Assembly: GCA_027452215.1 (NCBI GenBank)
Contig: DAIDGQ010000027.1
Span: forward strand, 62,001 to 126,000
DNA from: Granulicella sp.
Lineage (GTDB): Bacteria; Acidobacteriota; Terriglobia; Terriglobales; Acidobacteriaceae
DNA: 64,000 nt
Direction of reading: 5' to 3'
Shown here: positions 56,678-58,535 of the stretch, in pieces
Layout of the letters: each line of letters starts with the position of its first letter
How positions within the stretch are numbered: position 1 is the stretch's first letter
The notes under the pieces: generated by a model
What the model was told of the DNA's origin: nothing
What the model saw: only the letters and a program-made list of their open reading frames with translations
Databases searched by the model: none
Made by a program: the position numbers and the translations under genes

Positions 56678-56791
56678 ATTTCATGCAGAGTGGTTGAGGG
56701 ACGAGCCCTACGACGCCACGACAACCGGACAGAACACAGTACCGGTGTCAACTCTCTCCTGGATCGGCGCAAGCCTCAGGGTACATGAGAT
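56678..56791 (+). promoter_or_regulatory. SAM-I-type (S-box) riboswitch upstream of the threonine-synthase-like gene
   Basis: The sequence follows the S-box consensus closely. P1: ATTTCATG (56678-56685) pairs with CATGAGAT (56784-56791). After AGAG comes GTGG and then GAGGGACGAGCCCTACGACG, matching the conserved GAGGGA-x-x-GCCC-x-A-x-GA of P2. Next comes GACAACC, the counterpart of GGCAACC. P3 is ACCGG/CCGGT. Then GGTGTCAACTC corresponds to GGTGCTAATTC, and P4 is CCTG...CAGG with an inner GGC-GCAA-GCC. A hairpin downstream (TTCGGTGGA at 56791 with TCCACGAA at 56825) could be the expression platform. It binds S-adenosylmethionine if functional. Confidence 0.85.
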
Positions 56792-56904
56792 TCGGTGGAA
56801 GCAGACCCGTATCTGAGCCTGACCTCCACGAACCTCCGTACCGAGACCTCCAGACAAGAGAGCGGCCTCCAGGACCATCACCCTTCGACCATCGGAGTCG
56901 ATCA

Positions 56905-58227
56905 ATGGTGTCTTCCTGTAAGAGCTACGAGTCTTCAGCAACAAAATACGAGCTGCGCTGCAATGAGTGCGGCAAGAGCTACGGCAACCAGCCCCTCTCG
57001 GCCTGCGCCGATTGCCTCGCCCCCCTCGAAGTCCAGTACGACCTCGAATCCGTCCGCGGCCGCTTCACCCGCGAGACCGTCGCCGCCGGCCCCGCCAACA
57101 TCTGGCGCTACAAGGAGCTCCTCCCCATCCCCGACGGCTTCCTCCCCGACCTCCCCGTCGGCTTCACGCCCCTCGTGCGTGCGAAGAACCTCGGCAAGCG
57201 AATCGGCGCAGACAACCTCTACGTCAAAAACGACTCGGTCTGTTTCCCGACGCTCAGCTTCAAGGACCGCGTCGTCTCCGTCGCCCTCGCCAACGCGCAG
57301 GCCTTCGGCTTCACCACGGTAGGCTGCTCGTCCACCGGCAACCTCGCAAATTCCACCGCCGCCCAGGCCGCCCGCCTCGGCATCAAGGCCTGCATCCTCG
57401 TCCCCGCCGACCTAGAGTACGCCAAGATCCTCAACACCCAGGTCTACGGCGCGCGCCTCGTCCGCATCGACGGCAACTACGACCATGTCAATCGTCTCTG
57501 CACCCAAATCGCCGACGAATACAGCTGGGGCTTCGTCAACGTCAACCTCCGCCCCTACTACGCCGAGGGCTCCAAGACCGTCGGCTACGAGATCGCCGAG
57601 CAGCTCGGCTGGCGTCTCCCCGATAACATCGTCTGCCCCATGGCCGGCGGCTCGCTCATCCGCAAAATCCGCAAAGCCTTCAAAGAGCTCATCGCCCTCG
57701 GCCTCGTCGAGCCCAAAGATGTCCGCTTCTTCGGAGCCCAGGCCACCGGCTGCTCGCCCATCTCGCAGGCCGTCAAAAACGGCTGGGACTACATCGAGCC
57801 GCAGCGCCCCAACACCATCGCCCGCTCACTCGCCATCGGCAATCCAGCCGACGGCCCCGCAGCCGCAAAAATGATCCAGGAGACCGGTGGCTGGGCTGAA
57901 GATGTCTCCGACGTCGAGCTCGTCTCCGGCATCCAGGAGCTCGCCGAAACCGAAGGCATCTTCACCGAGACCGCCGGAGGCGTCACCACCGCCGTCGCCG
58001 CCCGCCTCTACTCGCAGGGCCGCATCGGCCGCGACGAGACCACCGTCGTCTGCATTACCGGCAACGGCCTCAAGACCACTGACGCCCTCGAAGGCCGCTA
58101 CGCCACCGAGATCGCCGTCAAGCCCAAGCTCGCCGCCTTCGACGAGTACATCCGTGGCATCGACGGCCAGCTCATCACCAACCTCAACGCCGAAGCCGAC
58201 CTCGTCCTCGCCGGAGGTGCACGGTGA
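56905..58227 (+). CDS. thrC: Threonine synthase-like PLP enzyme
   Basis: This 440-residue fold-type II PLP enzyme has an N-terminal zinc-ribbon-like CNECGKSYGNQPLSACADC. The PLP lysine motif is VCFPTLSFKDRVVSVALANA, and the phosphate and substrate loops are VGCSSTGNLANSTAAQAARL and TVVCITGNGLKTTDALEGRY. By family it would convert O-phosphohomoserine to threonine. However, it lies under a SAM riboswitch and is coupled by a GTGA overlap to a sulfur-carrier gene, which points to homocysteine or methionine synthesis instead. The ATG at 56905 has GGAG 8 nt upstream; the frame upstream runs through the riboswitch. Confidence 0.88.
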   Translation: MVSSCKSYESSATKYELRCNECGKSYGNQPLSACADCLAPLEVQYDLESVRGRFTRETVAAGPANIWRYKELLPIPDGFLPDLPVGFTPLVRAKNLGKRIGADNLYVKNDSVCFPTLSFKDRVVSVALANAQAFGFTTVGCSSTGNLANSTAAQAARLGIKACILVPADLEYAKILNTQVYGARLVRIDGNYDHVNRLCTQIADEYSWGFVNVNLRPYYAEGSKTVGYEIAEQLGWRLPDNIVCPMAGGSLIRKIRKAFKELIALGLVEPKDVRFFGAQATGCSPISQAVKNGWDYIEPQRPNTIARSLAIGNPADGPAAAKMIQETGGWAEDVSDVELVSGIQELAETEGIFTETAGGVTTAVAARLYSQGRIGRDETTVVCITGNGLKTTDALEGRYATEIAVKPKLAAFDEYIRGIDGQLITNLNAEADLVLAGGAR

Positions 58228-58535
58228 GCGTAAAAATCGTTCTCCCCACCGCCCTCGCCCGCCACACCGACGGCAAAAAATCCTTCGACTCTCAGGCCAC
58301 CGATCTCCCCGGCCTGCTAGCCGAATTCGACGCCAAATTTCCCGCACTCTCCCAAAACGTCAAGGACGACAACGGCAAACTCCGCCGCTTCATCAACGTC
58401 TACGTCAACGACGAAGACATCCGCTTCCTCGGCGGCGACGCCCACCAATTCGAAGACGGCGACGAAGTCATGCTCATCCCCTCCATAGCCGGAGGGTGCT
58501 CCGCGCACGGCGAGTCCTGCGCGGACGGCGAGTAG
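58224..58535 (+). CDS. ThiS/MoaD-family sulfur carrier with a C-terminal extension
   Basis: This 103-residue ubiquitin-like protein has core VKIVLPTALARHTDGKKSFD, LRRFINVYVNDEDIRFLGGD, and AHQFEDGDEVMLIPSIAGG. In active carriers the Gly-Gly must be the C-terminus, because it is adenylated and turned into a thiocarboxylate. Here GG is followed by 12 residues (CSAHGESCADGE), made of two similar short units at the DNA level. A protease would have to remove the tail. The GTG start overlaps the thrC stop (GTGA), so the two proteins are made together. Confidence 0.88.
   Translation: MSVKIVLPTALARHTDGKKSFDSQATDLPGLLAEFDAKFPALSQNVKDDNGKLRRFINVYVNDEDIRFLGGDAHQFEDGDEVMLIPSIAGGCSAHGESCADGE

Follow-up and report, generated by a model that had tools for sequence, protein, structure and literature searches.

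Organization of the locus

The window (the whole stretch of 64,000 nt of DNA that was analyzed) contains a riboswitch leader followed by two overlapping genes. The metM row below rests on homology and on a tree, whereas the leader, the GGAG, the Gly-Gly and the tail are read from the sequence.

56678 to 56791, + strand: SAM-I (S-box) riboswitch aptamer (RF00162, 66.0 bits against a gathering score of 44.4)
56792 to 56904, + strand: leader from the aptamer to metM, presumed expression platform
56894 to 56897, + strand: Shine-Dalgarno-like GGAG
56905 to 58227, + strand: metM-type PLP enzyme (ThrC family, fold type II), probable homocysteine synthase
58224 to 58535, + strand: metO-type sulfur carrier (ThiS/MoaD/SAMP family; Pfam ThiS, 42.9 bits, cut-off 22.5)
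58491 to 58496, + strand: Gly-Gly of the carrier (residues 90-91)
58497 to 58532, + strand: 12-residue tail after the carrier Gly-Gly

In the covariance-model search, the RF00162 match covers the full length of the model (positions 1-108, E 3.8e-13). The match is thus significant, a point on which the first-pass annotation had made its reading depend. It is the sole gathering-level Rfam match within the window and the sole SAM-I match of the 2.53 Mb assembly (listed completeness, 59%). The mechanical ORF of the enzyme begins at 56785, within the aptamer; the start is likely the ATG at 56905, seven bases past the GGAG, which would give a protein of 440 aa. This protein has zinc-ribbon-like cysteines (19/22/34/37) and, by alignment, a PLP lysine (K120). 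It scores 231 bits against Pfam PALP and 277 bits against the NCBIfam thrC model TIGR00260 (cut-off 167), and with profile models its ThrC-type score is far above its cysteine synthase score. Its stop codon TGA overlaps the start codon of the carrier in the motif GTGA, the carrier running from GTG 58224 to TAG 58535 (103 aa). The first-pass annotation had described a SAM-I-type aptamer, a ThrC-family PLP enzyme and a ThiS/MoaD-like partner joined by this overlap, and the model scores now confirm all three. MetM and MetO are reportedly due to Hasebe et al. 2024 (Appl Environ Microbiol 90:e01247-24), for Streptomyces albulus.

The SAM-I aptamer and its leader

The aptamer core is nearly invariant in an alignment of 25 leaders of the genus. 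The terminator search found no terminator-like site on the + strand between the aptamer and metM, the lone site of this type in the leader being on the opposite strand (shuffles average 2.2), so that a + strand transcription terminator acting as the switch was rejected. The hiding of the ribosome site was evaluated in silico for 24 of the 25 leaders, G012 being unscored. The ON and OFF proxies differ little, with a mean probability of an unpaired Shine-Dalgarno sequence of 0.47 versus 0.42 (0.43 ± 0.03 for the shuffled segment); the expected direction was obtained in 15 of the 24 leaders and the shuffled control overlaps. A GGTAC/GTACC pairing in the leader looked suggestive by eye. The folding of the whole leader gave no signal (z = -0.85).

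A possible stem of four pairs surrounds the GGAG when the window (56888-56901) is set beside 24 leaders of the same genus. All four pairs are present in 13 of the 25 leaders, with several differing pair combinations, and a stem this short could arise by chance.

Conservation of the gene order and of the riboswitch

The survey set consisted of the window's own genome and 60 relatives, 61 genomes altogether. A MetM-type gene (56-100% identical) is found in 50 of them, and in 49 of these 50 genomes the carrier gene lies at most 185 bases downstream; the exception is G057, where the carrier is 3.6 kb away and a contig end truncates the gene. SAM-I was detected in 42 of the 61 genomes, every one belonging to the 50 MetM genomes, and in none of the 11 genomes devoid of MetM. 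The aptamer is located 100-253 bases upstream of metM in 41 of the 50 genomes and on another contig in G048. The order aptamer, enzyme, carrier, which the first-pass annotation had proposed to look for in relatives, is borne out by these two counts (49/50 and 41/50). Among the eight MetM genomes without SAM-I, four have a SAM-II-like RNA (see below) and G031 has neither, while three have short or no sequence upstream of the gene (G057, 0 bases; G032, 167; G023, 257).

The same organization is seen in actinomycetes, for which the best 80 loci listed by the profile scan were retained and 20 of these were scanned for RNA. SAM-I is directly upstream of metM in all 20 scanned loci, three of them from Streptomyces, and a carrier is present downstream in 77 of the best 80 loci listed. 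The Nonomuraea record NZ_LT559118.1, for example, has a MetM-type gene with SAM-I upstream (68.7 bits) and the carrier downstream. This 11.85 Mb replicon is filed as a plasmid and is probably a chromosome.

SAM-II-like aptamers in related families

Five matches to SAM_alpha were found directly upstream of metM, at 34.6, 25.7, 25.5, 24.9 and 23.3 bits, all below the cut-off of 36 (E 2e-4 to 0.23). They occur in G060 (two copies), G052, G058 and G055, genomes in which SAM-I is missing there and the conserved SAM-II core is kept. The elements are located as follows.

L049:2746-2940: SAM-II-like aptamers of G060, in tandem
L046:1840-1912: SAM-II-like aptamer of G052
L048:1918-2091: SAM-II-like aptamers of G058, in tandem
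L050:1995-2065: SAM-II-like aptamer of G055

A SAM-II consensus pattern run over 148 loci recovered the same places and no others (L032 and L050 being from the same genome), and a looser pattern revealed the second copy in G058; the pattern having been derived from the SAM_alpha matches themselves, it shows the absence elsewhere and is no independent test. Terminator-like hairpins follow the SAM-II-like RNA in all four genomes, although the second G060 copy has none behind it. Our literature search returned no paper linking SAM-II to metM or to Acidobacteriota; the one paper mentioning both lists SAM-II in other groups in the passages concerned.

These data make it likely that the metM operon is a site where whole classes of SAM riboswitch take each other's place, with SAM-I in most of this bacterial class and in actinomycetes, and SAM-II-like elements, probably acting as transcriptional attenuators and in tandem in two of the four genomes, in related families. 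The window would fall among the SAM-I loci, and its carrier would need trimming before loading. Such an apparent exchange of SAM-I for SAM-II before one and the same gene would offer a tidy case for studies of riboswitch replacement.

The carrier and its tail

In the same genus, all 26 carriers have at least one residue past the Gly-Gly, and these tails are unrelated in sequence and in length. A loaded carrier would need a Gly-Gly end, and therefore we infer that the tail is trimmed. The profile search found a Prok-JAB protease in 58 of the 61 genomes and none in the window's own, 59%-complete genome. In many relatives, a second ThiS-type carrier is encoded beside a Prok-JAB gene (e.g., G041:C76:107472-108168 and G039:C66:49214-50043), a cluster which looks like the CysO-type cluster, and the Prok-JAB protein of this second cluster might also serve the metM carrier.

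A probable route from O-phosphohomoserine to homocysteine

Taken together, these data argue strongly that metM and metO of the window form an operon governed by a SAM-I riboswitch, and that this operon very probably serves a carrier-thiocarboxylate route from O-phosphohomoserine to homocysteine. A homoserine kinase would supply O-phosphohomoserine, and the MetO-type carrier, after the putative trimming of its tail, would be activated at its C-terminal Gly-Gly and receive sulfur as a thiocarboxylate. The MetM-type enzyme would then, on PLP, eliminate the phosphate of O-phosphohomoserine and attach the sulfur of the carrier to the gamma carbon. Homocysteine would be set free from the carrier, methylated to methionine and converted to SAM. 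We also infer SAM binding and the direction and step of the control: at high SAM, the leader would bind it and expression would fall, whereas low SAM would let metM and metO be made. The observations behind this reading are the homology of the aptamer, the conserved gene order, the separation of the enzyme from ThrC and the existence of thrB and thrC as a pair of their own elsewhere in this genome. The first-pass annotation had suggested that the enzyme makes homocysteine from O-phosphohomoserine and a carrier thiocarboxylate; homology and comparative genomics make this the best-supported reading.

The survey also covered other homocysteine routes. MetX, counted above 300 bits, a cut of our own since no genome of the 61 reached the curated cut-off of 500, was found in 13 genomes and MetA in five; HcyBio was found in none of the 61, and MetY passes its cut-off in 15 according to the tool tally. 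Within the 50 MetM genomes, seven have MetX and five MetA, and neither is recognizable in 38; when only the MetM genomes at least 95% complete are considered, 26 of 31 have neither. As for the 11 genomes without MetM, six have MetX and five neither MetX nor MetA. The absence of MetX and MetA from most MetM genomes fits a role of MetM as the usual methionine supply, though not the sole one everywhere. In the window's genome, two candidates for these routes were rejected. The protein at C27:41493-42428 reaches 167 bits as MetX against the cut-off of 500, passes the cut-off of another subfamily (PRK07581) and has, by eye, a signal-peptide-like start. The genome's one Cys/Met PLP enzyme was not retained as MetY, its best matches being cystathionine gamma-lyase/synthase models, all below cut-off.

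These counts also bear on the possibility that homocysteine is made from O-phosphohomoserine and free sulfide, or from acetyl or succinyl homoserine, with the carrier as an accessory. Free sulfide is used by sulfhydrylases of other families, and MetX or MetA could supply the acyl ester in 12 of the 50 MetM genomes. No recognizable maker of such an ester exists in the other 38, however, ThrC relatives take a phosphate ester, and both variants leave the conserved adjoining carrier unexplained, so that we consider this possibility unlikely.

Relationship with threonine synthases

The window's genome has a thrB (G000:C35:43411-44193, above cut-off) which overlaps a separate thrC of canonical type, scored as thrC by NCBIfam. 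The idea that the window enzyme is the only thrC of its genome, raised in the first-pass annotation as a point to be checked, was consequently discarded. In the survey, thrB is present in 49 of the 50 MetM genomes, with no match in G055. In G042:C51, G041:C36 and G044:C40, a ThrC-family gene and thrB face metM and its riboswitch head to head, an arrangement which makes the two presumed users of O-phosphohomoserine neighbors.

To place the enzyme, it was compared, together with 17 relatives and 15 proteins from actinomycetes, with six ThrC; S. albulus MetM being absent from the set, the three Streptomyces among the actinomycetes stand in for it in the comparisons. In the 40-row tree the 33 MetM-type rows part from the six ThrC rows (support 98/94 and 97/95), and the same split receives 100/100 in 39 rows, once the very long row L004 is removed; both runs gave a warning of long branches meeting at the ThrC rows and flagged four rows of unusual composition. 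On the ThrC side lies the product of the thrC that overlaps thrB in the window's own genome, which groups with the structurally solved ThrC whereas the window enzyme does not. The alignment has 16 positions fixed differently in the MetM-type (33 rows) and ThrC (six rows) sets and 43 fixed in both.

These results weigh against an additional threonine synthase (or synthase/deaminase) placed under SAM control by coincidence, beside a carrier belonging to another pathway. The passing of the NCBIfam thrC cut-off by the window enzyme speaks for it at first sight, but this pass is not discriminating because a MetM-type protein of Streptomyces also lies above the TIGR00260 cut-off (264.8 bits). A homologue from Microcystis, with a metO-like neighbor and 51.6% identical to S. 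albulus MetM, does support it: in the available part of PMC12172450, threonine formation and threonine deamination by this protein were both observed in vitro, the sole signal near methionine was a peak that was not identified, and methionine was not increased in treated cells. Against it, the genome already has a ThrC-family gene overlapping thrB, and the window enzyme is only 31% identical to the product of that gene, compared with 51-56% to the actinomycete MetM-type proteins. Also against it are the carrier, which follows the gene in all MetM genomes but one (49 of 50), and the SAM riboswitch, which is ill-suited to the control of threonine supply, and we regard a second threonine synthase as very unlikely. 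A role as cysteate synthase, or as a different ThrC-family PLP enzyme acting on sulfonate or sulfur, can practically be dismissed, the TIGR03844 match (44 bits) being weak, far under the cut-off of 324.9 and under the thrC score too.

Several observations count against the route through the carrier thiocarboxylate: the in vitro activities of the Microcystis homologue, the 12 of 50 MetM genomes with MetX or MetA, the MetM genome without a thrB match (G055), the lack of Prok-JAB in the window's incomplete genome, the thrC score of the enzyme, the long-branch and composition warnings of the tree, and the small difference between the ON and OFF proxies of the leader. TIGR00260, a threonine synthase equivalog model, accepts the MetM-type proteins of both the window and Streptomyces, and misnaming in public annotation is therefore likely. 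Judging by the survey, 38 of the 50 genomes with MetM may have, among the families searched, no recognizable homocysteine maker other than a gene to which annotation routinely gives the name of threonine synthase. The riboswitch context and the adjoining carrier would provide a simple rule for correcting this annotation.

Comparison with known systems

Canonical ThrC (e.g., Thermus 1uim, Aquifex 2zsj) shares with the window enzyme the fold family, the presumed substrate and the 43 common fixed positions; it differs by an identity of 34-36%, the 16 positions fixed differently and a separate branch. In the CysO/CysM system, a carrier thiocarboxylate and a PALP-family enzyme act on a phosphate ester amino acid, O-phosphoserine being converted to cysteine. 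The product is thus different, and by its profile scores the window enzyme is of ThrC type, with cysteine synthase far behind. In the HcyS/HcyD/MetY system of Wolinella, a carrier thiocarboxylate gives the sulfur for homocysteine after a JAB-type protease has trimmed the carrier; MetY, of fold type I, is one of the Cys/Met-metabolism PLP enzymes, whereas the window enzyme belongs to the ThrC/PALP family.

The closest system is that of S. albulus, in which, according to the available part of PMC12172450, MetM synthesizes homocysteine from O-phosphohomoserine, metO encodes the adjoining carrier and a SAM riboswitch precedes metM. As far as that part shows, the two systems have in common the ThrC-family enzyme, the adjacent carrier gene, the upstream SAM riboswitch, and O-phosphohomoserine and homocysteine as proposed substrate and product. 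The first-pass annotation had hinted that the arrangement was new; this did not hold, the series SAM riboswitch, metM, metO having been in print for Streptomyces by 2024-2025. Our literature search found no description of metM-metO in the lineage of the window, although the primary S. albulus paper may list it. The window differs from the known case by its lineage, by an enzyme 51-56% identical to the actinomycete MetM-type proteins, and by the 12-residue tail of its carrier, whereas 63 of 77 actinomycete carriers (among the best 80 loci listed) end exactly at the Gly-Gly. The window locus is a further example of the route known from Streptomyces, the arrangement and chemistry of which were in print by 2024-2025, and it extends this recently reported methionine route to another lineage.
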